The position numbers were made by a program, and so were the translations under genes. A stretch of 33,286 nucleotides of DNA from a virus, in IMG/VR virus record IMGVR_UViG_3300033145_001790, positions 1 through 33,286 of that record, one strand, 5' to 3'. The notes under the pieces are model-generated. The model was not told the origin of the DNA. It searched no databases and saw only the letters and a program-made list of their open reading frames with translations. Below, one piece after another: positions 15,732 to 32,524 of this stretch (positions are counted from its first letter, which is position 1; every line of letters begins with the position of its first letter).

Positions 15732-16163
15732 TTAAATTAACCAATCTTTTTTCATATAGGATAAAGATAAATCTTTTAAAGAATCATAATGTTCATTATC
15801 TTTTTGAACTTTTTTCCAGGGTGTGTTCATATAAAATTTTCTTAATTTTCCCTGTCTATTTCCAGATAATATTATTATTATACTTCCATAATCATAATAA
15901 GTTCTTTCTGGTTTATATTTAACCCATCTATATCGTTCAACTATCACACCAAATTGATTTCTTGCATAATTAACAACATTATGGAAATCATTAAATTGAA
16001 TAATATCTCCAACTTTATGTTTTAACCGACTATTATCTAAAATTATTTGATATTCTGCTTTATATTCATATTTATATGGCATATATCGTGGCATATATCG
16101 TCTAGTATATCGTTGCGCTGTTTTTATAACTGTGTGAATTGTTTTATATTTTGTATTTTTCAT
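15732..16163 (-). CDS. Hypothetical basic, aromatic-rich protein
   Basis: 143 residues from ATG 16163, with a GGGGGA site; the TTG three bases upstream is unlikely. The first 40 residues are very basic and Tyr/Arg-rich (QRYTRRYMPRYMPYKYEYKA), which would suit nucleic-acid binding. The rest is a small beta-fold with HKVGDIIQFNDFHNVVNYA and IVERYRWVKYKPERTYYDYG. It overlaps the end of the FolE2 gene by 20 bases, so translation is coupled. I do not recognise a family. Confidence 0.65.
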   Translation of the reverse strand: MKNTKYKTIHTVIKTAQRYTRRYMPRYMPYKYEYKAEYQIILDNSRLKHKVGDIIQFNDFHNVVNYARNQFGVIVERYRWVKYKPERTYYDYGSIIIILSGNRQGKLRKFYMNTPWKKVQKDNEHYDSLKDLSLSYMKKDWLI

Positions 16164-16992
16164 CAAATCCCCCTTTCACACCTTTCCAATTAGTAGCTAT
16201 TGCATTACTAGTATGAATTGATTCTTGATGGACACAATGAATATGCCAATCTTTTATAAAAAACATAGAATTAATATTTTTAGAAATAGATCGAATAGCA
16301 TCTTCTACAAAAATAGGATTTTTTGCAGCTATCTCAGCAATTAATTGTTCATCCACACGTTTAATAATAGGAAAAGGTAAAGTTTTTATACTTTTTTCAA
16401 GAGTTTCAATAATATCTTCTAACCAAATATATTTATCTTTTTCAACTTCAATATTAACATAAACAAATGATCGTTGAGCATGAGGAAATCCAATAGACCC
16501 ATTTTTAAAAAGATCTTTTGATAATTCAGCACTACATGGGCAATAACTTGCGTATTGAAATTTAACACCTTGAAAAAATCTAAACTTTTTTAATACAGAA
16601 TTATAATGCATTTCAAATTTACAATTATGATATATTGGAAATTGGTTATTACTTTTTGGAGATTTTCTTTTTATTGGAAGTTTAAAATCAAATCTTATAA
16701 ATGAGTTTATAGAGCCAATATTTTTATTTAAATCTTCCATAATTTTTTTAATTAATTTATGTTTAAGAGGTAAATCTAAATACGGTTTTAAAGTTAATAA
16801 TAAACGACTCATTGAGATTCCTTTTGTATTATTATTTAAATTGGTTGTCATTGAAACTTTTGCAACCATTTGTTTAAACCCACCATATTTAGATTCAAGA
16901 GTAAATGGAACTTCAATATTATTAACTCCAACTTGATTAATTGGAATTTTAATTTGTGGTTCTGTAATTTGAATATCAGGTAAATCTGTCAT
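16144..16992 (-). CDS. folE2: GTP cyclohydrolase FolE2 (type IB)
   Basis: FolE2 converts GTP to 7,8-dihydroneopterin triphosphate, the entry to folate and to 7-deazaguanine (preQ0/queuosine) synthesis. The 282 residues show the family landmarks in order: VGVNNIEVPF (21-30), GISMSRL (58-64), the metal-binding Cys loop YCPCSAELSK (150-159), GFPHAQRSFV (168-177) with the conserved His, FVEDAIR (228-234) and ESIHTSNAIA (257-266). Length is normal. It is the first gene after rpoB, with an AAGGAG site directly after the structured repeat at 17005-17050. Phages often carry this pathway to make modified bases in their DNA, but no other pathway gene is in the window. Confidence 0.92.
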   Translation of the reverse strand: MTDLPDIQITEPQIKIPINQVGVNNIEVPFTLESKYGGFKQMVAKVSMTTNLNNNTKGISMSRLLLTLKPYLDLPLKHKLIKKIMEDLNKNIGSINSFIRFDFKLPIKRKSPKSNNQFPIYHNCKFEMHYNSVLKKFRFFQGVKFQYASYCPCSAELSKDLFKNGSIGFPHAQRSFVYVNIEVEKDKYIWLEDIIETLEKSIKTLPFPIIKRVDEQLIAEIAAKNPIFVEDAIRSISKNINSMFFIKDWHIHCVHQESIHTSNAIATNWKGVKGGFDEKYKI

Positions 16993-17073: not shown

Positions 17074-20070
17074 TTAATTTTCAATTCCAATTACTGTAAA
17101 ATATGCATTTAAAAGTTTAATTGATTCTGGTATTTCATCATATTTTTGAGGCAAATTTATTAAATCAGTATTTACAAACTTTTTAATATATTTATTTTTT
17201 AAATCAATACAATCTGATTTTGTTGTGAAAAATTCAAATAAATTAATAGGTGCATCATGACCTATAAGACACGCATTCTCTTGTTCCCCACATCTCTGAC
17301 CTCCTTTATTTTTTCTTCCTCCTAAAGGTTGTAGTGTGCGGCGTGAATATGACCCAATCCCTCTCGCTGCTAATTTTCCATCAGCTATATGCACCATTCT
17401 AAAAAAGTATATTTTTCCAATAGCAATTTTATTAACTATATTTTGTTGTGAAATTGGATCAAATATTTTTTGTTCTGGTTTAGTATTTGTAAATTTAAAA
17501 GCTTTTTTAATTTGATCAATATTTAATGATTCAAATGGGGGTTGAATAATTGTTAATTCTTTAATAAATTGTTTATCAATTTTATCTGGTAATTGTTTTT
17601 TAAATTGATTATAGTACCAATTATTTTTTGTATTATCAATAATTTTAATATATGATAACAAATGTTCTCTAATTTGTTTTTGGTTCTTATTATCAAACAT
17701 TTGATTTAATTGATTTTTTAAACCACATAAAGTTTCAGATAATTGAAGTTCAAATAATTGACCTATATTCATTCTTGAAATTATACCTAAAGGATTGATG
17801 CAAATATCAACATGTTCCCCAGATTCAGTTAATGGCATTTTATCATGATCTACAATTCTAGAAATAACTCCTTTATTTCCATGTCGATTAGCTAATTTAT
17901 CTCCAACTTGAACTTTTCTAAAAAATATACTATTTATTTCAACTAACATTCCATTAATTTTTTCACCTTTATTTTTAAATTTACCAACATATGAAAATTT
18001 ATTTAAACTATTATCTCTTATAAAAGTGGAAGCTTCAGCTTTATCTAAATTTTCATTAAGAACTTTCTTTAATACATTTTCTTCACTTTTTTGATTTTCA
18101 ATTCTTTCTTCAACCCATTTTTTAAATTCAGGAATTTCATCATTCCATTCATTTGGATAAATATTTACATCTGTTATAATATAATTATTTACTGCTTTTA
18201 AAATAACTTTCTCATTAAATGAAGAACATAAATCAAAAGAAGACATTTCTTTAATTATTGCATATGGATTTCCGGTTTTAATTTTTTCAAGTTTATCTGG
18301 TAATGGTTTATAACAATTTGTATTTAATGATAACAAAACTCGACTAATAGGTAATATAAATGATAAATTTCTACAATGGACAGATGTTAAAATATTTTCA
18401 TCAACTAATTTTTTAGAAATAACAATTCCATCTTCATAATTATTTCCATAATAAGACATAACTGCTGTTAAAAGATTTCGGCCAATATTTATTTTTCCAT
18501 CTTTACAAAAATTACTTTCAGCTAAAATATCTCCAGCTTTAAATTTATCACCTTCATTAACATAAATATTCATAAAGTCTATATTTTCAACATAAATATT
18601 TTTAAATTTAATATTAAAAATTTCAACTTCTTTATCAAGATATTGAACTATAATATATTGATTTCCAATATATACCACATACCCATCTTTTTTAGCTCTT
18701 TTTATAAATTGGGTAAAATCTGTATATAAACCTTCACAACCAGATCTTATTAAAGGTTGTTCAAAATTTTTTAACATAATCGATTGTCGCATTTGGGAAG
18801 AAGACATCTGTAATCTTGTCTGGTCGTCATTTTCACAAAATGGAACTAATGAAACTGGTATTGAAATTGGTTGATGTTTTAAATAATCTGTTCCAAATTT
18901 TAAATTTTTATCTAATATTACATTGGGAATTAAGTTTTGTAAAATACCACAATTATCTCTGTCAGGAGTGTCGACAGGACAGATTCTTCCAAACATAGAT
19001 GAATGAATATCTCGTAAATGTTTAGGCACATTATCTCTTTTAAAACCTCCTGGCCCAAGTAAACTAACACGAGAAAGTTTTGTAAGTTCTTCTATAGGAT
19101 TTATTGAAAAATCAAATTGAATAATATCAGAAACATTACACTCCTTTAAAATCTGAGTTGAATTAATATTAAATTTTGGTTGTTTTGCAGTTCGATTAGA
19201 AATACATAAATCAAAAACAGATTTTGAAATTTTTGAAAATATCATATATTCTAAACATCTAATACGTTTATTTACAAAATAAGTATCATCAATATTTCCA
19301 TTTTTTAAAACATTTATAATTTCTTCTAATATAGAATTTGTCTTAAAAAATCTACTAGATAGAATGTCAATTTTTGGAATTAACTCAAGAGCATATATGA
19401 TATCCTCACCTTTTGATTTTGCATTATATTTTGAATACATTCTACCAACTTCAGCAATAAAATCATCTTGTGTATAATTTTTTGATTCTTTATAAAAAAT
19501 CTTAAGATCATATAAAAGATTTTCGTATAGATTTTTTGAATCTGTAGATACATTTATTTGATTAAAATCATATGTTTTATTAAGATTCTCTGCATTAAAA
19601 AAAGCAAACATTAAAAGAGCTAATGGTACTTTTTTCGATAAAAAACTAACTGTAATAAAAGGTGGTTCTTTTTCTTTAAAAATCATCATAGTTGCAACAT
19701 TTGTACGTAATTTAATATTTTTTCCTCGTGTACATATAGGAATATCAAATAATTGAAAGAGGGGTATTTTCTTTTTTCCATTTATAATTATATAATTATT
19801 ATCTATTAATTTTGGAATTACCATACTTAAATCAATTTCTGAATTTTCTTTTTTTAATCTAATTATTAAATTTTGTTTTACTGTTTTTGATAATTCACCT
19901 GATGAAAATTTTGAATCTTTTAAATATAATTCATTAATAATAAATCCTAAATCCTCAACAGGTTTTAAAATTTCTGAAACTATATTTATGATATTGTCAT
20001 ATTCTTTTTTTCTTATATTAAAAATATTTTTATCTTTATTAATTTTAAAATTTGGGTTAATTATATTCAT
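17074..20070 (-). CDS. rpoB: DNA-directed RNA polymerase beta subunit, phage-encoded
   Basis: This forms half of the catalytic core of a multisubunit RNA polymerase. The 998 residues are shorter than bacterial beta (about 1150-1340), but the universal blocks are present in order. They are LGPGGFKRDNVP and GRICPVDTPDRDNCG (about 336-370, fork/rifampicin region), NNYEDGIVISKKLV (about 538), GDKLANRHGNKGVISRI (about 722) with the active-site-proximal Lys residues, and NPLGIISRMNIGQLFE (about 755). DGKLAARGIGSYSRRTLQPL and GGQRCGEQENACL (about 893-925) form the C-terminal clamp/switch region. CPVDTPDRDNCG differs from bacterial CPIETPEGPNIG, showing deep divergence rather than recent capture. The gene starts right after the HNH stop, and its AGGAG site lies within HNH codons. 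Confidence 0.95.
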   Translation of the reverse strand: MNIINPNFKINKDKNIFNIRKKEYDNIINIVSEILKPVEDLGFIINELYLKDSKFSSGELSKTVKQNLIIRLKKENSEIDLSMVIPKLIDNNYIIINGKKKIPLFQLFDIPICTRGKNIKLRTNVATMMIFKEKEPPFITVSFLSKKVPLALLMFAFFNAENLNKTYDFNQINVSTDSKNLYENLLYDLKIFYKESKNYTQDDFIAEVGRMYSKYNAKSKGEDIIYALELIPKIDILSSRFFKTNSILEEIINVLKNGNIDDTYFVNKRIRCLEYMIFSKISKSVFDLCISNRTAKQPKFNINSTQILKECNVSDIIQFDFSINPIEELTKLSRVSLLGPGGFKRDNVPKHLRDIHSSMFGRICPVDTPDRDNCGILQNLIPNVILDKNLKFGTDYLKHQPISIPVSLVPFCENDDQTRLQMSSSQMRQSIMLKNFEQPLIRSGCEGLYTDFTQFIKRAKKDGYVVYIGNQYIIVQYLDKEVEIFNIKFKNIYVENIDFMNIYVNEGDKFKAGDILAESNFCKDGKINIGRNLLTAVMSYYGNNYEDGIVISKKLVDENILTSVHCRNLSFILPISRVLLSLNTNCYKPLPDKLEKIKTGNPYAIIKEMSSFDLCSSFNEKVILKAVNNYIITDVNIYPNEWNDEIPEFKKWVEERIENQKSEENVLKKVLNENLDKAEASTFIRDNSLNKFSYVGKFKNKGEKINGMLVEINSIFFRKVQVGDKLANRHGNKGVISRIVDHDKMPLTESGEHVDICINPLGIISRMNIGQLFELQLSETLCGLKNQLNQMFDNKNQKQIREHLLSYIKIIDNTKNNWYYNQFKKQLPDKIDKQFIKELTIIQPPFESLNIDQIKKAFKFTNTKPEQKIFDPISQQNIVNKIAIGKIYFFRMVHIADGKLAARGIGSYSRRTLQPLGGRKNKGGQRCGEQENACLIGHDAPINLFEFFTTKSDCIDLKNKYIKKFVNTDLINLPQKYDEIPESIKLLNAYFTVIGIEN

Positions 20071-20934
20071 TCATTTTTTCTCCTTTCTATATTTCTTCTC
20101 ACATACTAATTTTGCTAAAGCTCCAGGTGAACAATCTCCTTGATGCCCATATTTTAAATGGCAATTATTTCCTTTTCCAAATGAACATAAAACCCACCCA
20201 TTTATTGGATCCAAAGACATTTCAGGGTGAGTTTTTTGAGGCATTTCATGATGAACGCTCAATTCATCTTTATTTATATTTCCACAAATTTCACATTGTA
20301 ATTTTCCATATTCTTCTATATTTCTTTTAAAAACTTCGTGTCTGAATATTTCAGATCCTTCACTTCCTAATTCTTCAGTAATATGTCCTGAATTAATTAA
20401 ATCTTGTTTCATTATTTGTTCTGTAGATTTTCCAAAAAGAATACATGATTTTTTGCATTCTTCAGAACAATAGAAATATGAACCTCCATTTCCGCGTTCT
20501 AAACATATAGCTCTATCATAAAGTTGACTCCCAAATAAAATAAACCACCCATCCATTTCTTTTGAGTTTGGACAATTATGATTTTTACAATGACCTTGGA
20601 TTTTTCCAGTTTTTGAATCTTCTTTTAATTCTTCTACTTCAAATAAAAATGGATGTTTTTCTTTCCAATCTTCAAGAGAATAACTTAATTTTTTTCGAGT
20701 TTTTTCTGTATGATGTTTTCCAAAAAATGGATTATTTTTACCTATAAATTTTCCTTTATGACTCTCGCTCATTCTTCTTCTAGATTCTATAGAAGGAATG
20801 AATTTTTTATGTCTCTCACTATTTTTTTTCCTTATAATTGGACATTGACTATAATGACTTTCACAACACCACTGTCCATTTTTAAATTGATATTTCGCCT
20901 CCCTTCCACAACCATAATCACAAATATGGTTCAT
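20071..20934 (-). CDS. HNH homing endonuclease between rpoC and rpoB
   Basis: 287 residues. It has an N-terminal Cys module (HICDYGCGREAKYQFKNGQW then CCESHYSQCP), NUMOD3-like HKGKFIGKNNPFFGKHHTEK and a long conserved middle. The HNH core has CEICG, VHHEMPQK and DPINGWVLCSFGKGNNCHLK. It is a paralogue of the protein at 7444-8571; the shared C-terminus is ELAKLVCEKRYRKGK in that copy and ALAKLVCEKKYRKEK here. The start codon overlaps the rpoC stop as ATGA. The stop is followed at once by the rpoB start, so the endonuclease sits in the polymerase operon with no spacer on either side. It probably targets the corresponding junction in related phages lacking it. Confidence 0.88.
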   Translation of the reverse strand: MNHICDYGCGREAKYQFKNGQWCCESHYSQCPIIRKKNSERHKKFIPSIESRRRMSESHKGKFIGKNNPFFGKHHTEKTRKKLSYSLEDWKEKHPFLFEVEELKEDSKTGKIQGHCKNHNCPNSKEMDGWFILFGSQLYDRAICLERGNGGSYFYCSEECKKSCILFGKSTEQIMKQDLINSGHITEELGSEGSEIFRHEVFKRNIEEYGKLQCEICGNINKDELSVHHEMPQKTHPEMSLDPINGWVLCSFGKGNNCHLKYGHQGDCSPGALAKLVCEKKYRKEKK

Positions 20935-23636
20935 GTTATTCTTTCTCCAATAAGAATTTTATCAATAATTCCTTTATAATTACCTTTATTTAAAAGACCT
21001 TTTAAAATATGTCTTTTTGGATTAGAAAAACTTAAACCTAAAATCCAACTTTCTTGACTTGGTGTCGATTGAATACTAAAATATTCTGGGACTAATTCAT
21101 TTCTATTTTCATAAAGTCTCCATTTTTTATGTTTATACCACATCAATTGAGCTACAATACATTCAAAATGGATATGATAAATATCTTGATTATGAGAATA
21201 AACATCAAATAATTCTGAAGTAATTTCTTTATAAGTTTTTCCTTTAAATTTATGTAATAATTTTGATATTGTTGATAAATCTGCAACAATATCTTTTTGT
21301 TTCATATCTGTATTTTTTCCTTTTTCATTATTTATAATTGCTGATCCACTGAAATGAAACGTCCTTAATATTAACTGAGTTCCTCTTTCCCCTAAAGTTT
21401 GGGCTGCAATAATTCCTATATATTTACTATGTAATTCTTCATATGTATTACCATAACATTTATGACATATATTTTTATTTTTACATAAAATAGGACTTCT
21501 TAATTGAATTGTTTGCCCTAATAAATTTTTAACATCTTCTTTTTTTATTTGTATTAAAATATTATTTTTAATATAAAATCTTCCTATTAACATTTTAGCT
21601 TTTCGTTTTGTATTAATAAAAACTTCTAAACAATCAGTAGTTCCACAATCATCAGAATTTCCTAATTGTAAATTAGCACAAGTAAAAATTAATTTTCTTG
21701 AAAGATAACCAGAAACTCCTGTATTCAACGCTACATCCAAAAGTCCTTTTCGACATCCATATGTCGAATTAAAAAATTCTTTTTCATCTAATCCTTCTAT
21801 CAAACTATGTTTAATAGGAGTTTCTAAAATTTCACCATCAAAATTTGAAATAAACCCTCTTGTTAATATCATTTGTTTAATTTGTTCCCAACTACCTCTT
21901 GCTCCAGATTCAAGCATATAAGCATATTTAAAATTCTTTTTTAAAAATTCTGTAATATCATTATTAGAAAATTTATTTAATTGTTCTATAATATTATCTG
22001 AAGAATATATTTCATTACATATTTTATTTGATTCATTTATTACACATTCATTAAGAACCATAGTAGTTCCAAATAAAGTTGCAAATTTAAATCCTATTCT
22101 TTTTATTTTATCTAAAGTTTTTGTTATTTCTTCAATTGGATATAAATTTTTAATATCATTTAGAATTTCTAATAAACGTTTTTTATCTACTTTTCCAAAA
22201 ACAACAGGGTAATCTTCTGGAAGACATTTATTAAATTCAACTTCCCCCTTACTTATATTTTCATTTTTATATTTTATTATATTTTTATAATCTGGTAAAT
22301 TATTTGTAGTTAAAGCATATATTCCTAAAATTATATCTTGAGTCGGAATAGTTGATAAAGATCCATTAGCTGGACTGCTTAAATTTTTAGTAATAAAAAT
22401 TTTATCTTTTATTTCTTGTTTTGCTTCTTCAGAAATTGGAACATAAACTGCGATACAATCACCGTCAAAATCTGCATTTAATGGAGCACATATCATAGGG
22501 TGTATTTTAATGACAGAATCTAAACTTATTTTGATTTTAAATCCTAACATTCCTATTCTATGTAATGAAGGTTGTCTGTTTAAAATACAAACTTCATCTT
22601 TAATAATCAATTTACATAAATCAAATAAAACTGGAGAAGAATTTTCAATACATTCATCAATAAAAGAAATAGCTTTATTAAGAAGTTTGAATTTTCCGAT
22701 CTCTATTAATTTTTTAGAAATTTGAAGTTTAAATATTTCTAAAACCATTTTATAAGGTAAAATACATTCATCTATCTTTAAAGTTGGTTCTGGAGTAATT
22801 ACAGCTCGACCAGAAAAATCAATTCTTTTTCCTAAAATATTTCCTCTAATAAGCCCTTCTTTTTTAGACATTTTTTCTAAAATATGATGATAAAGTTCAT
22901 TAACGTCTTTTTGTAATTGTTTAAAATAAATATAATATAACTTTTTATTAGTTCTTATATCAATAATTGTATTTTTCATAGATTCTTTTTTTGTTAAAAT
23001 TTGCATATAGAATCTATTTATTTTATCAACTATCTGATTATTTTTTTTAATACCTTTTGCAGCCGGTCTTAAATCTGGAGGTAAAACTATAATTTGATTA
23101 ATGATGAGTTTATCTAAATTATTTTTTATAAGTTTCCAATCTGCAATCTCTTCTGAAAGATTATTTGCAAGATCTTTTATTATTTTTTGAATAGCATTAA
23201 GACCTTCCCAAGTTTCTTTATTTTTTGGAATTAGTTCTGAGTTTGTTGTTATAACATGTTCATCTTCATCTAAATATAAAATACTTTTATCATTTTTCAT
23301 TAATTCAGTTAACGCACCTTTTAAATTAGAACCACCCAATACTATTAATAGATCATAAAATATTGGGTTTATAACAGGAATAGGTAAAATTATTTTTGCA
23401 AATCTTTTTCGACGTTCATTACTATTTACAATATCAACTTTACATATTTCACAATTATTTCCTGATTTAGAAATACCATAATAAGTTCCACATTGACAAG
23501 TATAATTCTTCATTGGCCCAAAAATTTGCTCAGAAAATAACCCTTCAGGATGAAATTTTTTTTTATTCATAATTTTTGTTGTAGTAATTTCTTGTAAATT
23601 TTCACAAAAATTTTGAAAATCTAAAAGTTTTGGCAT
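20931..23636 (-). CDS. rpoC: DNA-directed RNA polymerase beta-prime subunit, phage-encoded
   Basis: This is the catalytic subunit. The 901 residues contain the Mg-binding signature NADFDGD (385-391). Before it come GKRIDFSGRAVITPEP (about 270) and LNRQPSLHRIGMLGF (about 350). The bridge-helix/trigger-loop region is very recognisable: ESGARGSWEQIKQMILTRG (about 575), GLDEKEFFNSTYGCRKGLLD and ALNTGVSGYLSRKL. Zinc ligands are present at the N-terminus (Cys47, 49, 62, 65) and in the second site (DDCGTTDC with NICHKCYG). IGIIAAQTLGERGTQLILRT completes the core. It lacks most lineage-specific insertions and about 500 residues of E. coli length. AGGAG precedes ATG 23636. No alpha, omega or sigma gene is visible in the window. 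Confidence 0.95.
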   Translation of the reverse strand: MPKLLDFQNFCENLQEITTTKIMNKKKFHPEGLFSEQIFGPMKNYTCQCGTYYGISKSGNNCEICKVDIVNSNERRKRFAKIILPIPVINPIFYDLLIVLGGSNLKGALTELMKNDKSILYLDEDEHVITTNSELIPKNKETWEGLNAIQKIIKDLANNLSEEIADWKLIKNNLDKLIINQIIVLPPDLRPAAKGIKKNNQIVDKINRFYMQILTKKESMKNTIIDIRTNKKLYYIYFKQLQKDVNELYHHILEKMSKKEGLIRGNILGKRIDFSGRAVITPEPTLKIDECILPYKMVLEIFKLQISKKLIEIGKFKLLNKAISFIDECIENSSPVLFDLCKLIIKDEVCILNRQPSLHRIGMLGFKIKISLDSVIKIHPMICAPLNADFDGDCIAVYVPISEEAKQEIKDKIFITKNLSSPANGSLSTIPTQDIILGIYALTTNNLPDYKNIIKYKNENISKGEVEFNKCLPEDYPVVFGKVDKKRLLEILNDIKNLYPIEEITKTLDKIKRIGFKFATLFGTTMVLNECVINESNKICNEIYSSDNIIEQLNKFSNNDITEFLKKNFKYAYMLESGARGSWEQIKQMILTRGFISNFDGEILETPIKHSLIEGLDEKEFFNSTYGCRKGLLDVALNTGVSGYLSRKLIFTCANLQLGNSDDCGTTDCLEVFINTKRKAKMLIGRFYIKNNILIQIKKEDVKNLLGQTIQLRSPILCKNKNICHKCYGNTYEELHSKYIGIIAAQTLGERGTQLILRTFHFSGSAIINNEKGKNTDMKQKDIVADLSTISKLLHKFKGKTYKEITSELFDVYSHNQDIYHIHFECIVAQLMWYKHKKWRLYENRNELVPEYFSIQSTPSQESWILGLSFSNPKRHILKGLLNKGNYKGIIDKILIGERIT

Positions 23637-24384: not shown

Positions 24385-25242
24385 TTAAGCAGCTCCTGTT
24401 TCAGGAATTAATTCAACATAAAATTGTTTGTTAAATTTTGTGGTAGATATTACATAATTATTAAAGCAGTTTGGAATATTTATCATAGAAACTAAATTAA
24501 ATATTATATCATTACTATTAAGTAATGTTTTTGCTGGAACAATTTTTTCACAAATTGGTGAATCTTTTGTTCCGACACACATATTAATTTTGGAAGTTTT
24601 ATTCGCTTTTAAAATTGGTAAAATATTATTAGCGAGATTTATTAGTTGATCTTCGCCAGGTACTGAATCATAAATAATATCTTTCTTTCTTTTAATAAAT
24701 TTTTTTAAATAATCTAAATCAAATTTATGAACACTTTGATCTAATATACAATCTCGAATTTGATTATTGTCTATTAAATTTGCAAAAATAATTGAAGCAT
24801 TTCTTAAATCATTTTTTGTTAAATAAGTAATATATTTTCCTTTATGTTGTTTTTCATAATAAACATTTCTTCGACAATCTATAATTAAATATCTTGAAGA
24901 AATATATAATCGGGTATCAATAGATTTACCTCGATTATATGTATAATCTCTACAATCTATAAGGATATCATATTTGGGGATTTTAGTTACATTTTCTATA
25001 TATTTTTTATTAATTTTTTTAATAATAATATCTTCATTTTTATTTTTTATAATATTTTCTAAAGCATCAACTTTTAATATTCCGACATCTTTTTTTCTAT
25101 AAATTGTATTTTTTAAATTATTATCTTCAATAATATCATGATCAATTAAAATTAGTTCATTAATTTTTTCTAAATTAGAAATATAATTAGCAACATAACC
25201 ACCAAGAGACCCAATTCCTATAACAGCAATTTTTTTATACAT
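24385..25242 (-). CDS. ThiF/E1-like adenylating enzyme 1
   Basis: 285 residues with an N-terminal Rossmann nucleotide site, IAVIGIGSLGGYVA (GxGxxG at about 9-14). The E1/ThiF signatures follow: LIDHDIIEDNNL (acidic residues and Asn for ATP), the Arg/Lys segment YRKKDVGILKVDALE, and LIDCRDYTYNR, matching the Asp-x-x-Asp-Asn-x-x-x-Arg pattern. Such enzymes adenylate the C-terminal Gly of ubiquitin-like or sulfur-carrier proteins. A CxxC zinc site is not obvious and the catalytic Cys is uncertain (DSPICEKIVPAKTLL near 240 is one candidate). It is coupled to the HPN-Cys protein downstream and is clearly distinct from the second ThiF at 26682-27359. Confidence 0.8.
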   Translation of the reverse strand: MYKKIAVIGIGSLGGYVANYISNLEKINELILIDHDIIEDNNLKNTIYRKKDVGILKVDALENIIKNKNEDIIIKKINKKYIENVTKIPKYDILIDCRDYTYNRGKSIDTRLYISSRYLIIDCRRNVYYEKQHKGKYITYLTKNDLRNASIIFANLIDNNQIRDCILDQSVHKFDLDYLKKFIKRKKDIIYDSVPGEDQLINLANNILPILKANKTSKINMCVGTKDSPICEKIVPAKTLLNSNDIIFNLVSMINIPNCFNNYVISTTKFNKQFYVELIPETGAA

Positions 25243-25265
25243 AAAATTATCCTCTCTTTTATTTC

Positions 25266-25511
25266 TTAAGAAATTGGGTTCATTAATTTTATTATCTCGT
25301 CAGTTTTATCTACTAAAAATAAAATTTCGTTTTTTGAAAGTCTCCCTGATGATCCGTATCCAATGGTTCCATCTTTTTTATTATAAGTTCTTGTAATTTG
25401 AAGTTTTGGTTCAGCCTCATTATAAGAAAAAATAATAAATTGCAAACTTCCATTTTCTTGTTCCATTTCAAAAAGTTTTATCATTTTGTCATTTTCTTTA
25501 TTATAACCCAT
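25266..25511 (-). CDS. Small protein, possibly PC4-like
   Basis: 81 residues after GGGGGGGAG. LFEMEQENGSLQFIIFSY, EPKLQITRTYNKKDGTIGYG and SSGRLSKNEILFLVDKTDEI give four strands and a C-terminal helix. The pattern 'strand-Arg-x-Tyr-x-x-x-Gly-x-x-x-x-x-x-Gly-x-x-Leu-(T/S)-x-x-E' recalls the PC4/YdbC single-stranded DNA-binding coactivator fold. That would suit a gene close to rpoC, but the similarity is faint. The run of seven G in its ribosome site is unusual in this AT-rich genome. Confidence 0.6.
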   Translation of the reverse strand: MGYNKENDKMIKLFEMEQENGSLQFIIFSYNEAEPKLQITRTYNKKDGTIGYGSSGRLSKNEILFLVDKTDEIIKLMNPIS

Positions 25512-25548
25512 ATAATCTTCTCCCCCCCTATAAATTTATATTTTTTTA

Positions 25549-25582
25549 ATAGTGAGATTATACATAAATATAATCTCACTAT
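25549..25582 (-). terminator. Perfect 14-bp inverted repeat between genes
   Basis: ATAGTGAGATTATA (25549-25562) pairs perfectly with 25569-25582 across a 6-base loop, directly after the stop of the 178-residue gene. On the minus strand the stem is preceded by TTTTTT and followed by AAAAAAA, so the U-run needed for minus-strand termination is absent. It may be an RNA-stabilising stem or an operator. Confidence 0.5.
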
Positions 25583-25588
25583 AAAAAA

Positions 25589-26125
25589 TTATTTTAACAT
25601 AGACATTTCATCTGCGGTCAACTCTGATTTATATGAAGCTTTAAAATTAAACAATTTATGAGTTTCTCTAATAGAATAATTTCTCGGAATTTTAAAAAAC
25701 ATTTTTAACTTTTTTCCATTTTGAATTTTTTTAATATAAAATGTATCTATTAATGGAATTATTTGTTTTTCAAAATATTTAAAATCATTTTTATTTTTTA
25801 TATTAAATTTTCTGGAAATATTTTTTTGTTTCCATCTATGAGAATTCATAATTTCAATTTTTAAAGAATCTTTTTTCTCTTCAATAGCTTTTAGTGCTCG
25901 TGATAATGATTTACTTCTTCCTTTTTTCTTATTAAAAGTATCAAGAACAGAACATATTGATACACCCCTTGACATAACCTCATTATTTTCATCTAAAAAT
26001 AAACATACCGTACAAACATTATTTACTAATTCTGTTTTATAATAATAATATTTTATTCTTTTAACTCTAATTTTTTTAAGATATTGTTCAAAGTTAAGTT
26101 TTTGATCTTTCTTAACTTTTTTCAT
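25589..26125 (-). CDS. Hypothetical protein with RGVSICS...GRSKSLSRALKA motif
   Basis: 178 residues with a perfect AAGGAGG site. The N-terminus is Lys-rich; LVNNVCTVCLFLDENNEVMS leads into RGVSICSVLDTFNKKKGRSK and SLSRALKAIEEK at about residues 53-84. This segment has the look of a conserved signature seen in phage and plasmid proteins that I cannot name. The rest is basic and mixed alpha/beta (FFKIPRNYSIRETHKLFNF). It lies between the two halves of the ubiquitin-like region and is bounded by hairpins on both sides. Function unknown; a link to conjugation is only positional. Confidence 0.65.
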   Translation of the reverse strand: MKKVKKDQKLNFEQYLKKIRVKRIKYYYYKTELVNNVCTVCLFLDENNEVMSRGVSICSVLDTFNKKKGRSKSLSRALKAIEEKKDSLKIEIMNSHRWKQKNISRKFNIKNKNDFKYFEKQIIPLIDTFYIKKIQNGKKLKMFFKIPRNYSIRETHKLFNFKASYKSELTADEMSMLK

Positions 26126-26141
26126 TTTCTTCCTCCTTAAT

Positions 26142-26185
26142 AAAAATTAAAGGGAATATTTTCATATCCCCTTTAATTTTTTAAT
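26142..26185 (-). terminator. Terminator-like hairpin after the ubiquitin-like gene
   Basis: AAATTAAAGGG (26144-26154) pairs perfectly with CCCTTTAATTT (26169-26179), 14-base loop, with A-runs and T-runs outside. On the minus strand the stem is followed by UUUUU. It closes the cassette 30780-26205. The next gene starts only 17 bases further on, leaving no room for a promoter, so termination is presumably partial. Confidence 0.8.
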
Positions 26186-26204
26186 TAATAATTCTTAATT
26201 GTTT

Positions 26205-26663
26205 TTAACCCTTTTTTCCAGCCGGTTTAATAAATTCAAGAATATCACCATCTTTTAAAACATATCCATCTAATACTTCTTTTCCATTAACCAAACCTTT
26301 TGACATACGAGCTACATTTAAAACTTCACGTAGAAATTCTGAAACAACACCAACTGATTTTCCAACTACTGGAAATTTCCCAGAAGAAGCTCCAGCTGAA
26401 ACTTGAATTGTTGTTTTTGTTTTATTCCCAAATGATGCATTCGGATTTGTTAAAGAACTTGTAAAAGATCCATCCAATCCAGTAACTTTATTATTTTGAG
26501 TTTTGGTCGTTATTTTCTTTTTAATTGATCTTGTGTTTTTAAGAATAGCTTCTATAATGATATCTTTACGTTTTTTAGTCATTCCTGGTATTTCAAGAGT
26601 ATGAACACATATTTGACGAAGTTCTACTACAGTTTTGTTTTGTAATTCTTCTTTTGTATACAT
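26205..26663 (-). CDS. Ubiquitin-like beta-grasp protein with N-terminal SAP/HeH-like domain
   Basis: 152 residues with a GAGGAG site. Residues 1-42 (VVELRQICVHTLEIPGMTKK then RKDIIIEAIL) form a helix-extended-loop-helix, SAP/HeH-like, often nucleic-acid binding. A Ser/Thr/Asn-rich linker follows. Residues 84-147 read as a beta-grasp: two strands, a helix (VSEFLREVLNV), then LVNGKEVLDGYVLKDGDILE and FIKP, as in ThiS/MoaD and ubiquitin-like folds. The C-terminus is PAGKKG. A terminal Gly is needed for E1 activation, and PRTRC protein C, as I recall it, also ends in Gly-x-Lys-Gly. It lies directly after a ThiF gene and a JAB gene. Role as a conjugated modifier is inferred. Confidence 0.75.
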   Translation of the reverse strand: MYTKEELQNKTVVELRQICVHTLEIPGMTKKRKDIIIEAILKNTRSIKKKITTKTQNNKVTGLDGSFTSSLTNPNASFGNKTKTTIQVSAGASSGKFPVVGKSVGVVSEFLREVLNVARMSKGLVNGKEVLDGYVLKDGDILEFIKPAGKKG

Positions 26664-26681
26664 ATAAAAAACTCCTCTCTT

Positions 26682-27359
26682 TTAGTTTTTACAAATTCTT
26701 TTTTTAGAATCTGCTTTCATGGTTAAAATATCAAAATAAATTTCACAAAATTGGTAATTTTTTTTTACAATAACATTATAAAATGCCCAACACATAATAG
26801 TTGCAACACCCAAATTAGTAAAGAGTAACTGTGGTTCTGATTTTGAAAGTTCTTCACATGACATTTCATCTGGATGTTTATCATCTGGATTTTTAATTTC
26901 TTGATGATAATCACATAAACTTGGTGTAATATTTTCACCTCCTTTTCTTATATAAATTTGTACATTACCATCTATAAAATCATTCCCCCCAGAAATAAGA
27001 ATAATTTCATCAAGACAATTGCAATAATTTGAAATCAATTGTCGAGTCTTATGATTATCAACTCCTAATAAAACAATATCTTTATTTTGAATAATAGTAG
27101 ATATATTTTCATCATTAACATATTGATTAATTGAATTAATTTTTAATTGTTTAAATTTAATTTCAAGTTCTTTGGTTTTAACTTCAGCTTTATTTCCAAT
27201 ATAATTAAAATCTTGTCTTTCATAATTTTTTAATTCATATTGGTCTCCATCTACTAAAGTAATATTTATATCATTCTCCTTCGAATAATTAAGAAATTTA
27301 CATAATTTATCAGTTAAAATTGACCCAATTCCACCAAGACCAATAATTTTAATATTCAT
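26682..27359 (-). CDS. ThiF/E1-like adenylating enzyme 2, PRTRC-ThiF-like
   Basis: 225 residues. IKIIGLGGIGSILTDKL gives the GxGGxG nucleotide loop at 7-12. LVDGDQYELKNYERQDF (35-51) supplies the acidic/Asn residues and the Arg finger, followed by a Lys near 59-61. VLLGVDNHKTR is the second ATP-site segment and ISGGNDFIDGNVQ follows. The C-terminal MSCEELSKSEPQLLFTNLGV (166-185), with Cys168, matches the Ser-Cys...Gln-x-Leu-Phe-x-Asn-x-x-Val-Ala pattern I recall from PRTRC-system ThiF proteins. It probably adenylates the C-terminal Gly of the adjacent beta-grasp protein and may form a thioester on Cys168. AAGGAG precedes the ATG. Confidence 0.85.
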   Translation of the reverse strand: MNIKIIGLGGIGSILTDKLCKFLNYSKENDINITLVDGDQYELKNYERQDFNYIGNKAEVKTKELEIKFKQLKINSINQYVNDENISTIIQNKDIVLLGVDNHKTRQLISNYCNCLDEIILISGGNDFIDGNVQIYIRKGGENITPSLCDYHQEIKNPDDKHPDEMSCEELSKSEPQLLFTNLGVATIMCWAFYNVIVKKNYQFCEIYFDILTMKADSKKRICKN

Positions 27360-27371
27360 TTATTTTCTCCT

Positions 27372-28274
27372 TTATAAATAATTCATTAAATTTAAATTAT
27401 CTTCATCTTCATCAATTTCTTGAGTCATTTTTTCAAGCATTAAATCAATTTTATAATCTTTAAAAACACATTCTTTACATGGATTAAAATCATCATCAGT
27501 ATTATTATTATTGTCACTACCAAATGACAATGAATCGATTATTTTTTGATTCCTTATTCTTGAAAAATCAAAACTATTAATATTAATTGGTAATATTTCT
27601 TTTTTAGAAACATTTTTTAACCATTTTTTATTAAATTTAGCTTTTATAATATTTGAAGATTCAACTATATAAAAAATACCATCTTTATTAAATTGAACAA
27701 TACCTTGAATATATTCTCCTGGTTCTGTAATAAATCTTGACCCATTAATTACAATAGATGATGAAATACTAAATGATAAATCAGAATTATTAATATTTCC
27801 AAGAGTAATATGTAAACCATCAAATTCTTTTTCATCATGACTATCAACTCCAGAATGAAAAGCTGATAATGATCCGTGACTATGAATATCTCCTATTAAA
27901 TTATAATTAGGAATATTATTTATAGAATAGTCTAATGAACATGAAGAAACAGTTTGGGTAGGAGCATATAATTTAAATTTTTTAGACAATTCATTATAAT
28001 AAATTAATACAATTGCCTCCCCTTTATAAAGTTCATAAACTTTTCTAAAAAAAGTAATAATTTTAAGAAATTTAATTGTTGATATTTTAGGAATATTCAT
28101 TTTAGCTTTAGAAACTATATTTAAATTATTCAAAATTGAAATTTGATTAACTGGGGTAATACTTTCTAATAATCCTAATTTCTTTTTTAAAAATATCCCC
28201 TCTTTAGAAACTATATAAAAAATATCGTCTTTAGGAATTTCTTGATTTCCATCATTAATAAATATTTTAAACAT
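27372..28274 (-). CDS. JAMM/JAB metalloprotease (deconjugase-like)
   Basis: 300 residues. GDIHSHGSLSAFHSGVDSHD provides the full JAMM zinc motif: His131-x-His133, seven residues, Ser141, two residues, Asp144. Glu86 in KGEAIVLIYYNE is the likely catalytic acid. JAMM peptidases cleave isopeptide or peptide bonds next to ubiquitin-like proteins, either maturing the modifier or removing it. The N-terminal 70 residues and the C-terminal 100, including CKEC, are additional. The start overlaps the end of the 837-residue gene, and E1 and the ubiquitin-like gene follow with short gaps. This is the gene content of PRTRC-like and other bacterial ubiquitin-like operons. Confidence 0.88.
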   Translation of the reverse strand: MFKIFINDGNQEIPKDDIFYIVSKEGIFLKKKLGLLESITPVNQISILNNLNIVSKAKMNIPKISTIKFLKIITFFRKVYELYKGEAIVLIYYNELSKKFKLYAPTQTVSSCSLDYSINNIPNYNLIGDIHSHGSLSAFHSGVDSHDEKEFDGLHITLGNINNSDLSFSISSSIVINGSRFITEPGEYIQGIVQFNKDGIFYIVESSNIIKAKFNKKWLKNVSKKEILPININSFDFSRIRNQKIIDSLSFGSDNNNNTDDDFNPCKECVFKDYKIDLMLEKMTQEIDEDEDNLNLMNYL

Positions 28275-30780
28275 TTCTGATATTTATCTCCCTATCTTGT
28301 TTGAATGAAAAATTTGATGAATTATTTTTTGTATACATCCCATGAAAATTTGGAAATCCTGAAAATTTTTGACATATTGTTTGTTGTTTTTTAGTATATC
28401 TTGGAGTAATAAAACCATGATGATAATAAGGATGTTTTTGAAAATTTGAATTATAATTATTTCCTCTTATAAAATTTCTGATTTTTTCTATTTGTAAAAT
28501 ATTATTATAATAAATATATAATATACTATCTAAAAAACTATCTCCCTCAATAGAAATAAAATCTCCAGGTTGAAATTTAATTTTAGACAGATTAATCGGA
28601 GCATGTTTTAATTTTTTCCATTTAAGTGAATCATTTTGAATTAATTCAAAATTAGTTTTTAAATCACTATACCATAAAGTACAACAATTAGAACAAAGAA
28701 CTAAAGGTTCTCCTCCAGTATCTATTAAAAATCCAATAATAATGTTAATATCTTTTTTAGGAAAATTTGAAATTTGAGATTTATTAGCTCTTATTTTTGT
28801 TCCTGATACAATTCCTTTATATTCTGTTTGAATTTTTCTTATAACTCCTATATTTATTTCAATATCTATAAATTGTTTATTTTTTCGAATATAGGGAATA
28901 TGTTCTATTTCTCCCTTTTTATTTTTTAAATGTATTTCAATAATATCTTCTGTTTTATTAAAATAAAATTTATCAATTGTTTGAATATTAAACATGTTTG
29001 TTGGATTTTCCCAATCTGCTTTTACAACTTGATCTCCAATTTTAAAATTTATTTCATTATCAAAACTTGTAACTTTAAATTTTTTATTTGAGGAATCTAT
29101 GCAAAATTTGAAAACTTCTTCTAATGATGGATTCTGTAAAATTTCATTTCTTAAAAATTTAGTTTTAGTTATAAAACTTTTTTGTTTATCATTCAAAAAT
29201 AATTTCGCACCGATTCTAAAAATACGAGGACATAATTTACAATCTGTTATTTTATGAATTATAAAATTAGTACTATCAAATAATGGTATACGAATTTTAT
29301 TATTATTATTATTATCTTTAAATGTTAATATGATTTTATTTTGTATACTTATATTACACTCAATAAATGTAGCTTTTATATAGTTTGTAACTACTAATTT
29401 ATAATTATTATTTTCTAATATATAAATTTCATTTTTCTTTAATTTTATATTTTGAAATTTTGGATTTTTATTATCAAAAATAGTAGCTTCTAAATTTTTA
29501 GCTAAATAATTATCATTATTTAGAATAATTTCAAATTCACCATCTCTTGCTTTTTTAATTTTATTTACTCGTTTATAACCTTTAAATGGAAAATCAACTA
29601 TTAATATATCTCCTTTTTTGACAATAATATTATTTTTTAATTTAATAAAATCTATTTGATTTTGATTTTCTAAAAATTGATTAATATTTGATTTGAAGAT
29701 TCTATCTATTTTTAATTTTGAAAAATTATGTTCAGAATCTTCAACTTTGACATATAATGGATCGGATAATGCATCATTACCAATAAATGTTTCTATAAAA
29801 AATTCTTTTTTATTAAGTATAAAAGAATCACCAATTGATAATACTCCATTTTCAAAAGCTACTGATTCACATATATTTTCATATAATTCTTTTTTATCTT
29901 CTTTTTTATCTTCTTTTTCATCAATTTTATAAAGTCTTGTGAAAATTTTTTCAAGAGAATAAAAATTAAATGAATCATTGCATAAATTTATATTATTTTC
30001 TATTTCACATATTTCTCGACTTAAAGTATAAAAATGGGGAATCCATGAAACATCAAATATAAACATTGGATCTTTTTTAGTATTATACTCCCATGTTAAA
30101 TAATCACTAACTTCATTATTTTTTTGTGCATATTTTTCAACATGGGATATATAATCATTATTAAAAATAGCAGACCAAAATTTCAATAAAATATTATCAC
30201 ATGATTCAATTAATGTTATGTTAGATGGTTGGTCGAATACACCAAGACATACTGTTTGTTTTGAACTTATATTTAACAAATTAGCATTTAATAAATAGTC
30301 TGCTTTGCTTGATATAGGTGATAATCGAAAGAAAACTTCTAAACGAATTAATTGATTTTCTGGATTTAAAACTATAATATAAACAATATATGGAAATGAC
30401 AATAAAAATCTATATGGTTTTTTATTTTCTTTTAAGAAATTTTTAAAACCATATTTTTCTAAATGACCTGATAATTTTAATTTTTCAATAACATATTCCA
30501 TACTTAAATCAACTAAAATTGTTCTTACTCTTGGTTGGTCTTCAAGTATAACCATTTTTGAACCATCTGAATAATATTTTGAATATCTGCAATTTAAAGG
30601 GAGTATTACATCACCACTTTTCATTTTTAATTTTTCTTGAATTCTCCCTAAAAAACCTTTAGTTGATTTAATACAATCTCTTATCATTGGAATTGTATCT
30701 TTTTTATCATTTTGAGTTATTTTAGAAATTAATAAAGATGTACAATTATTATCTATTCTTATTTCTTTTAAGTCATGCAT
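28267..30780 (-). CDS. Large multidomain protein with E2-like N-terminal signature
   Basis: 837 residues with AAAGGAG upstream. Residues 55-200 include MKSGDVILPLNCRYSKYYSD, LEDQPRVRTILVDLS and FLLSFPYIVYIIVLNPENQL, then EVFFRLSPI and LLNANLLNISSKQTVCLG. Asn170 is eight positions before Cys178, the spacing between the HPN Asn and catalytic Cys of E2 enzymes, and VCLG resembles the loop of PRTRC protein B-type E2 relatives as I recall them. The remaining 600 residues are strand-rich with several SH3/KOW-like pieces (KKGDILIVDFPFKGYKRVNK; FKIGDQVVKADWENP) and isolated CxxC pairs (DCKLCPR, LCSNCC). It may combine conjugation with substrate recognition. The E2 assignment is an inference. Confidence 0.6.
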   Translation of the reverse strand: MHDLKEIRIDNNCTSLLISKITQNDKKDTIPMIRDCIKSTKGFLGRIQEKLKMKSGDVILPLNCRYSKYYSDGSKMVILEDQPRVRTILVDLSMEYVIEKLKLSGHLEKYGFKNFLKENKKPYRFLLSFPYIVYIIVLNPENQLIRLEVFFRLSPISSKADYLLNANLLNISSKQTVCLGVFDQPSNITLIESCDNILLKFWSAIFNNDYISHVEKYAQKNNEVSDYLTWEYNTKKDPMFIFDVSWIPHFYTLSREICEIENNINLCNDSFNFYSLEKIFTRLYKIDEKEDKKEDKKELYENICESVAFENGVLSIGDSFILNKKEFFIETFIGNDALSDPLYVKVEDSEHNFSKLKIDRIFKSNINQFLENQNQIDFIKLKNNIIVKKGDILIVDFPFKGYKRVNKIKKARDGEFEIILNNDNYLAKNLEATIFDNKNPKFQNIKLKKNEIYILENNNYKLVVTNYIKATFIECNISIQNKIILTFKDNNNNNKIRIPLFDSTNFIIHKITDCKLCPRIFRIGAKLFLNDKQKSFITKTKFLRNEILQNPSLEEVFKFCIDSSNKKFKVTSFDNEINFKIGDQVVKADWENPTNMFNIQTIDKFYFNKTEDIIEIHLKNKKGEIEHIPYIRKNKQFIDIEINIGVIRKIQTEYKGIVSGTKIRANKSQISNFPKKDINIIIGFLIDTGGEPLVLCSNCCTLWYSDLKTNFELIQNDSLKWKKLKHAPINLSKIKFQPGDFISIEGDSFLDSILYIYYNNILQIEKIRNFIRGNNYNSNFQKHPYYHHGFITPRYTKKQQTICQKFSGFPNFHGMYTKNNSSNFSFKQDREINIRNV

Positions 30781-30785
30781 TTTTT

Positions 30786-31160
30786 TTATTCTCCTTTTAG
30801 ATATTTCATAACTTTCGCATATTCTCTTAATATTTTTGGAGCAGAATCAAATTTATCAATATTCCATGTTTGTATTCTTTTAACTTTTTCATTACCAATA
30901 ACAAGATTTTCAGAAAACCCAGTCCATAATGATATAATATATTTTTCCTTATATTCTCTTTCAAGACTTAAAAAAGAAATTTTATTCTTTGAAATTTCTG
31001 GAACTTCTAAAGATAAAAATATATTAGCACCTTGAGGAATATATTCTGAATATTTTGTATTAAGCTGCTCTTCTTTCATAATTTTATCACATAATTCTAT
31101 AACTTGTTCATCTAATTCACTACTTTCAATTTCTTTTAAAAGTTGTTCAATAATTCCCAT
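30786..31160 (-). CDS. Hypothetical protein
   Basis: 124 residues with AAAGGAG upstream. A helical acidic N-terminus (IEQLLKEIESSELDEQVIEL) is followed by strands (GANIFLSLEVPEISK; YIISLWTGF) and a helical end (KILREYAKVMKYLKGE). No motif is recognised. It lies five bases before the E2-like gene in the transcript and may belong to that cassette. Confidence 0.65.
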   Translation of the reverse strand: MGIIEQLLKEIESSELDEQVIELCDKIMKEEQLNTKYSEYIPQGANIFLSLEVPEISKNKISFLSLEREYKEKYIISLWTGFSENLVIGNEKVKRIQTWNIDKFDSAPKILREYAKVMKYLKGE

Positions 31161-31180
31161 TTAATTAATTCTCCTTTAAA

Positions 31181-31489
31181 TTATTTTTTTATAGAATAAC
31201 GAGTTCGATCTGGAGTTTGAAGCCAATCAACATTATTAAAAGGTATTGATCTCCAACCTCTTTTTTCAAGATCATAAACATGAACAATTTTAGCTTTTTT
31301 TACTAATTTTAAAATTTTAGGAATATTTATATTTTTAGGTTTATCAGCTCTTGGAATTCTTTTAAAATCTAAAGTACAATTCATAATACGAATTGTACCA
31401 TCTTTTTTTATAAATTTTATTATTACTTCTTCTACACTTCGAATTTTTTCCCAAAATTCTATAACATCATCAATAATATCTTTTGGCAT
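31181..31489 (-). CDS. Small phage protein, possibly DUF2693-like
   Basis: 102 residues. After a helical start, IIKFIKKDGTIRIMNCTLDF, IPRADKP and IVHVYDLEKRGWRSIPF form a compact beta-fold. The Lys-Lys-Asp-Gly-Thr-x-Arg pattern followed by a short strand resembles small phage proteins of the DUF2693 type, as I recall them. No enzymatic motif is seen. It lies between the radical SAM gene and the 124-residue gene in one transcript. Confidence 0.65.
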   Translation of the reverse strand: MPKDIIDDVIEFWEKIRSVEEVIIKFIKKDGTIRIMNCTLDFKRIPRADKPKNINIPKILKLVKKAKIVHVYDLEKRGWRSIPFNNVDWLQTPDRTRYSIKK

Positions 31490-32524
31490 TTATTTTCTCC
31501 TCTTTTCTAAATGTGCAAGTTCATTAATATTACTTTTTCCTTTTGAAATTAAATTTGACATTCCCATACAAGTCCAATTACATTTTCTGCAGAATTTTAT
31601 TTTATCTAATATAATTGACGATTTTGCAAATTGTATAATTTGCATATTTTTATCAAATAAACGATTATTCAATTTTATATATTTTGGAGTATTTACTCCT
31701 CTAATTCTTAAACAAAGTCTTATAGATCCATCAGCATCAATTGTAATATTATGTAAATTATTTTCTATTTTACAATCTAAATTTGATGGAAGAATTTCTA
31801 AAACTTTATCCATATGAATTCCTAACATATGAGCATCTAATTTATCATTTCTTATTAATTGCAATTGTTCTTTAAGAATATCTGAATTATGAACTAATAA
31901 ATTTTTATCAGTAATATTTGAAAAATCATAATATGGACTTTTAGAAATATCTATAAATGTAATATCTGTATTAATATTATGTTCGCTGAGTTCTTTAACT
32001 GTTTGATATAAATATTTAACATTTTCGTTTGAAATTGTCATTTCTGCTACTAAATCTTTTATATACGGGCGAAGTGATATTAATTGAGACATTCCATAAT
32101 AACTTTTTTTAGATTGATCTGTATTTTTATCTTTATATAATGGATCAATAGAACTTGTCAATCCTTGTATATAATCAACACTTGATAAAAGAGTTTCAAT
32201 TGAATCTTGAATTCCAGGAGAATTATTTGTAATTATTGTATAATGAATATTCTTTTTATTACAATAATTTATTATTTCTGGAAGGTCTGATCTTAAAAAA
32301 GGTTCTCCTCCATAAAATATATGAAAACAATCTGGATTATGTTTTTTGAGTTTCTTTAATCCTTCAATAATATATTCAGTTGACATTTCATTTTCAATAT
32401 AATATTTCATATTAGGATATTCTGCTGGTTTATTTTTATAATTTTTTGTGATTGCACAATATGAACAATTTAAATTACATTTTCTTGTCAAAAGCCAATT
32501 TACTATATGTATTTTATTCTCCAT
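31490..32524 (-). CDS. Radical SAM enzyme with SPASM-like C-terminus
   Basis: 344 residues. CNLNCSYC gives the CxxxCxxC motif for the SAM-binding 4Fe-4S cluster (Cys16, 20, 23). YGGEPFLRSDL (71-81) is the canonical GGEP SAM-binding strand. Later strands include IITNNSPG and DITFIDIS. The C-terminal part has DCKIENN, IDADGSIRLCLRIRG and CRKCNWTCMGM, resembling a SPASM/twitch region for auxiliary clusters. Such enzymes modify peptides, proteins or cofactors. No small precursor peptide gene is obvious next to it, and QueE-type function is unlikely given the length and extra Cys. AGGAG precedes ATG 32524. Confidence 0.9.
   Translation of the reverse strand: MENKIHIVNWLLTRKCNLNCSYCAITKNYKNKPAEYPNMKYYIENEMSTEYIIEGLKKLKKHNPDCFHIFYGGEPFLRSDLPEIINYCNKKNIHYTIITNNSPGIQDSIETLLSSVDYIQGLTSSIDPLYKDKNTDQSKKSYYGMSQLISLRPYIKDLVAEMTISNENVKYLYQTVKELSEHNINTDITFIDISKSPYYDFSNITDKNLLVHNSDILKEQLQLIRNDKLDAHMLGIHMDKVLEILPSNLDCKIENNLHNITIDADGSIRLCLRIRGVNTPKYIKLNNRLFDKNMQIIQFAKSSIILDKIKFCRKCNWTCMGMSNLISKGKSNINELAHLEKRRK

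Follow-up and report, generated by a model that had tools for sequence, protein, structure and literature searches.

PRTRC (ParB-related, ThiF-related) cassettes of plasmids encode a JAB protein (A), a Prok-E2_D protein (B), a Prok_Ub protein (C) and a ThiF protein. CBASS Cap2/Cap3 consists of an E1-E2 fusion and a JAB protein, and BilABCD/BubABCD share this prokaryotic E1, E2 and JAB logic. To our knowledge, the bacterial ubiquitin-like cascades whose roles have been worked out act in anti-phage defence. Phage lambda encodes a ubiquitin-like tail assembly protein, TAPI, with a JAB partner, TAPK, and neither E1 nor E2 (PMC1779556). Here we analysed a window of 33,286 bases (24% G+C), the whole stretch of virus record IMGVR_UViG_3300033145_001790 under study, in which four consecutive genes encode an E2-like protein, a JAMM (JAB) metallopeptidase, an E1-like protein (ThiF1) and a ubiquitin-like modifier, the same four families as in PRTRC cassettes. 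Together, these genes probably make up a ubiquitin-like conjugation cascade of the PRTRC type, encoded by the phage. The four-gene kit belongs to a large-phage family and seems equipped to mature a ubiquitin-like tag, to activate and transfer it, and to take it off again.

A previous inspection of this window (hereafter the sequence-only reading) had described four consecutive open reading frames (ORFs) with an E2-like Asn170-x7-Cys178 signature, a JAMM motif, a PRTRC-like ThiF with an Arg finger and Cys168, and a modifier with a SAP/HeH-like head and a Gly-Lys-Lys-Gly end, closed by a terminator-like hairpin. Each of these elements was recovered (Table 1). The ORFs lie where they had been placed, tightly packed on the minus strand in the order E2-like, JAMM, ThiF1 and modifier, with intergenic gaps of -8, +12 and +18 bases. 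Comparison of sequences and structures establishes the identities of the proteins, their catalytic residues, the gene linkage and the tandem modifiers described below; the cassette as a whole is supported by family profiles, by profile-profile alignment or structural comparison, and by the linkage of its four genes.

Pfam matched the E2-like protein only weakly, to Prok-E2_D (E 0.019). With hhalign, the profile built from 34 phage orthologues was compared with seven proteins of E2_D/PRTRC-B type, taken from plasmids and from Bacillus phage KLEB27-3; the probability was 97.1% (E 5.6e-11) across 201 columns, in which Asn170 and Cys178 fall on the conserved Asn142 and Cys150 of plasmid E2_D. Both residues are invariant among the 34 aligned orthologues and are also kept in a short single-domain phage E2. 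The strict N-x7-C-x-G pattern was observed in 50 of the 62 retrieved orthologues, and most of the others keep both residues but differ in spacing or context. The AlphaFold2 model of residues 1-275 has a pLDDT of 90.3. When it was compared to the PDB with VIA-align, the first 19 rows were all E2/UBC chains, including the Cap2 E2 domain (Z 5.6 to 3.6), and the next row scored 2.8. Around Cys178, where the sequence-only reading had expected a UBC fold, the predicted model shows a UBC-like one. Together, profile alignment and model point to a UBC fold with a catalytic Cys, as in the E2 of a conjugation cascade. Foldseek of the same model against BFVD retrieved four viral proteins at E <= 0.001, none of them functionally named. 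For the 570-residue C-terminal extension no fold was identified, the only match being a weak NusG-like one (E 0.049). The extension failed to align with the large protein encoded upstream of plasmid E2_D genes (1.8%).

The HxHx7SxxD motif was found in 67 of 68 distinct JAMM orthologues. In ThiF1, Arg48, Lys57, Asp101 and Cys168 are invariant within its own clade, and Cys168 is common to ten PRTRC-like ThiF proteins. Judged from these sequence features, ThiF1 would possess the ATP site, Arg finger and catalytic Cys of an E1.

The C-terminal part of the modifier gave a TGS-type beta-grasp match in Pfam. Its profile aligned in hhalign with PRTRC-C and related modifiers (96.8%, E 2.4e-10), a score that comes in part from the modifiers of locus L060, because these members of the comparison set are close relatives of the query. 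Within this set Pfam recognised ThiS (E 8e-10, L060) and Prok_Ub (E 5e-27, KLEB27-3). The beta-grasp fold foreseen by the sequence-only reading is thus consistent with profile alignment to Prok_Ub, ThiS and TGS proteins, which predicts a modifier with an exposed C-terminal Gly. The protein ends in PAGKKG, and G149, K151 and G152 are invariant among 34 sequences. GxKG in an EF-x-K context was present in 56 of 68 distinct modifiers, 23 of which bear extra residues, most often one Cys. Tandem forms were also found: two complete head-plus-modifier units joined at GRKG in L056 (207-kb contig), three modifiers joined at GRKG in L060 (181-kb contig) and, in KLEB27-3, four tandem copies joined at GVKG in a ubiquitin-like protein annotated as hypothetical (L009:718-1422). 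Such tandem and tailed modifiers are expected if the JAMM enzyme processes them, and we infer that it cuts their junctions and tails. The N-terminal head scored above the Rho_N cutoff, and the head of the L056 relative matched SAP. Head number varies, with two in L042 and L053 and none in L060.

Searches with ThiF1 retrieved 7 and then 42 viral loci, and 78 were retrieved with the RNA polymerase (RNAP) beta' protein. The sequence-only reading had suggested looking for the cassette in related phages, and 93 loci, several of them overlapping on the same contigs, carry all four core genes (64 distinct ThiF1); the order E2-JAMM-E1-modifier is seen at 90. The region upstream of RNAP beta' could be assessed at 46 loci, where 8 kb or more of sequence precedes a beta' gene sharing about 50% identity or higher; at 44 of them this upstream region holds the four genes together with a second E1-like gene, ThiF2. 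At the corresponding site of more distant RNAP phages, no cassette was found. Matches labelled Acinetobacter 'phage' bear ordinary chromosomal genes, including moeB. An attempt to assign a host from genome contigs led only to metagenome bins that were mixed in taxonomy. Two distant RNAP beta' genes were observed on one contig (L115 and L140; likewise L085 and L146), which suggests that some of these phages have two phage RNA polymerases.

By analogy with established E1-E2-JAMM biochemistry, the JAMM enzyme would trim the modifier, where needed, to its C-terminal Gly-x-Lys-Gly. ThiF1 would then adenylate the terminal Gly with ATP and load the modifier onto Cys168, from which it would move to Cys178 of the E2-like protein and on to an amino group of the target. 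The long E2 extension may choose the target, and the JAMM enzyme may also remove the tag. Phage or host proteins could be tagged in this way, and the SAP/Rho_N head would equip each of them with a nucleic-acid-binding module and might steer conjugation to DNA-bound targets.

Several observations weigh against such a conjugation cascade. No E3 was recognised. The modifier does not end in di-glycine, and those of L063 and L064 end in GDKA. In at least one related contig, L107, the cassette is absent from its site while the WYL_2 and RNAP genes remain, and it was not found in the rest of that 43.7-kb fragment either. Finally, for the N-terminal E2 model only VIA-align retrieved UBC folds, with a modest best Z of 5.6; Foldseek alone against the PDB retrieved nothing at E <= 0.001.

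Table 1. Coordinates of the cassette and of neighbouring features in the window (aa, amino acids).
Feature	Position	Strand	Evidence or remark
E2-like protein, 837 aa	28267..30780	-	UBC-like N-terminal domain (~residues 56-242) and 570-residue C-terminal extension
Asn170-x7-Cys178 catalytic signature of the E2-like protein	30247..30273	-	sequence conservation
JAMM (JAB) metallopeptidase, 300 aa, predicted processing/deconjugating enzyme	27372..28274	-	PRTRC_A TIGR03735 E 3.6e-9; Prok-JAB
JAMM motif H131-x-H133-x7-S141-x2-D144	27843..27884	-	motif kept in orthologues
ThiF1, E1-like, 225 aa, Arg48 finger and candidate catalytic Cys168	26682..27359	-	Pfam ThiF E 4.7e-19; PRTRC_ThiF E 8.7e-10
Ubiquitin-like modifier, 152 aa: SAP/Rho_N head, linker, beta-grasp, C-terminal GKKG	26205..26663	-	Pfam and profile comparison
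SAP/Rho_N helix-extended-helix head, modifier residues 6-43	26535..26648	-	Rho_N 28.8 bits, above cutoff 24.9
Gly149-Lys-Lys-Gly152, predicted activated C-terminus	26208..26219	-	conservation
Terminator-like hairpin, closes directon	26142..26181	-	18-bp stem, -21.3 kcal/mol, z -5.2
ThiF2: ThiF fold (residues 1-183) and C-terminal strand-strand-helix-strand-strand domain, conserved TGAA tail	24385..25242	-	Pfam ThiF E 3e-13
Conserved 124-aa protein, same directon	30786..31160	-	5-bp gap to E2 gene
WYL_2-domain (Sm-like SH3 fold) protein, same directon	31181..31489	-	Pfam WYL_2 E 3.5e-9; conserved neighbour
Radical SAM protein, same directon	31490..32524	-	adjoins cassette in 78 of 93 cassette loci
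RNA polymerase beta'	20931-23636		window gene
RNA polymerase beta	17074-20070		window gene

The sequence-only reading passed over ThiF2, the E2 extension and three genes of the same directon (30786-32524). Upstream of the E2 gene these three run in the order radical SAM, WYL_2 and 124-aa protein, separated from the next gene by 0, 20 and 5 bases, respectively, and the directon therefore probably starts upstream of the four-gene group. Among the matches of the radical SAM protein are viperin-like (pVip, E 6.7e-15) and PapB-like ones; those from NCBIfam fall below curated cutoffs. At the other end, the hairpin directly follows the modifier gene and has a U-rich tail; it is not among the sites listed by a simple terminator scan. 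The window also encodes a T4-type terminase large subunit. Between the RNAP beta' and beta genes lies a NUMOD3-motif protein, a probable homing endonuclease (20071-20934). A type I GTP cyclohydrolase gene, folE2 (16144-16992, Pfam E 1.4e-64), may provide a step to deazaguanine or folate compounds.

ThiF2 is a possible partner of the cassette. Its model (pLDDT 87.3) matches Cap2 with a VIA Z of 18.7, and the finger position is without Arg. The last 67 residues are modelled as strand-strand-helix-strand-strand, the element order of a beta-grasp, and this secondary structure suggests that the domain may be one. T282 and A285 are near-invariant, the tail reading TGAA or TGGA. The C-terminus is TGAA in 36 of the 70 retrieved proteins, which include a few unrelated ThiFs, and the remainder mostly terminate in small residues and Ala. 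In the distant relatives L126 (8002-8825) and L127 (7780-8608), a short ThiF (175-180 aa) is followed by a separate ORF of 94-95 aa ending in VTDAA or IPSSA, which looks like a free-standing version of the ThiF2 C-terminal domain. The ETGAA tail could be a by-product of the ribosome site of the next gene, as GGAG is present in its DNA; yet the codons vary synonymously and some relatives have no evident start close by, and the two causes are not fully separated. Neither the modifiers, by profile comparison, nor the PDB, searched with a sequence profile, gave a match to this domain, and because of the first of these results the idea of a second ubiquitin-like pair is no more than a lead. That a clade of large phages with their own RNAP uses the complete cascade to mark its transcription or replication proteins with a tag that binds nucleic acid, and that the beta-grasp-like ThiF2 C-terminus (TGAA/GGA) is itself activated in a second ubiquitin-like pathway, seems to us doubtful.

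Other functions can be envisaged for the cassette. Bacteria turn such conjugation on phages (PMC10097602), a use also attributed to Hor et al. 2024 in the citation given by PMC12660748, and deubiquitinase-like JAMMs of Borgs have been proposed as counter-defence (PMC12660748). The JAMM enzyme might likewise strip the conjugates of host CBASS Cap2/Cap3 or Bil systems, while the E1, E2 and modifier serve as decoys. A decoy would not need the full catalytic machinery and a dedicated modifier, all of which are conserved at a fixed site, and the PADLOC matches (E1-E2/BilD only) are generic to the ThiF fold; we consider counter-defence unlikely. A sulfur-carrier role appears quite improbable. ThiF1 would in that case thiocarboxylate the modifier, as for ThiS/MoaD, the sulfur would pass to a small molecule or tRNA, and the JAMM enzyme would release the carrier. 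The resemblance of ThiF1 to ThiF/MoeB, the closeness of the beta-grasp to ThiS/TGS in Pfam and the adjoining radical SAM gene would fit this scheme, but an E2-like protein with conserved Asn and Cys is encoded at nearly all loci, and the scanned proteins included no recognisable rhodanese or cysteine desulfurase. Tandem modifiers, moreover, are unusual among sulfur carriers and count against this role. Processing only, in which the JAMM enzyme cuts the modifier during assembly as proposed for lambda TAPI and the TAPK JAB (PMC1779556), would account for the cutting that tailed and tandem modifiers need but is highly improbable: it does not explain why E1 and E2 are encoded and keep their catalytic cysteines, and the cassette lies beside RNAP genes rather than recognised tail genes.

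If the cassette is indeed a conjugation cascade, bacterial viruses have a protein-tagging pathway of their own, with machinery previously known from cells and plasmids and with the full set nearly fixed in a phage lineage. Its tandem modifiers recall polyubiquitin. The function of PRTRC-type cassettes would become testable in a phage, and KLEB27-3, a sequenced Bacillus phage, may offer a way in. In the open-access papers searched, no account of a phage-encoded E1-E2-JAMM-modifier set was found; the automatic name PRTRC_ThiF is borne by single phage proteins.

Compared with known systems, the cassette shares with lambda TAPI/TAPK a ubiquitin-like protein and a JAB encoded by the phage; it differs in having E1 and E2 and in its RNAP and radical SAM neighbours, lambda's pair belonging to a tail cluster. 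With CBASS and Bil it shares the E1, E2 and JAB logic, and the ThiF2 and E2 models match Cap2 domains. Unlike them, it is phage-borne, with E1 and E2 in separate genes and a modifier of its own; the E1-E2 fusion beside a CD-NTase of type II CBASS is not seen, no CD-NTase being recognised in the scanned proteins. Closer are Bacillus phage vB_BauM_KLEB27-3 (OM634661) and Bacillota megaplasmids, where JAMM, ThiF, E2_D and GxKG- or KG-ending modifiers occur together. KLEB27-3 differs by its four-copy modifier polyprotein without SAP head, its short E2 and, in the stretch read, the lack of an RNAP neighbourhood. As in PRTRC systems, JAB, ThiF, E2_D and Prok_Ub-like genes lie here in one cassette, with a KG-ending modifier and the E2-JAB-ThiF order of PRTRC-like plasmids. 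The phage modifier gene follows ThiF and bears a SAP/Rho_N head, the E2 has 837 residues instead of about 250, and the setting is a phage, beside RNAP genes, rather than a plasmid. The NCBIfam PRTRC cutoffs are missed widely (PRTRC_A 36.5 of 101.8 bits; PRTRC_ThiF 38.3 of 144.75), and no ParB match was obtained among the 10 proteins of 24385-32524, the remainder of the window being scanned in part. Because of these missed cutoffs, the lack of a recognised ParB nearby and the different modifier and E2 architectures, we do not file the cassette under PRTRC: it functions like PRTRC, its nearest kind, without being a member.

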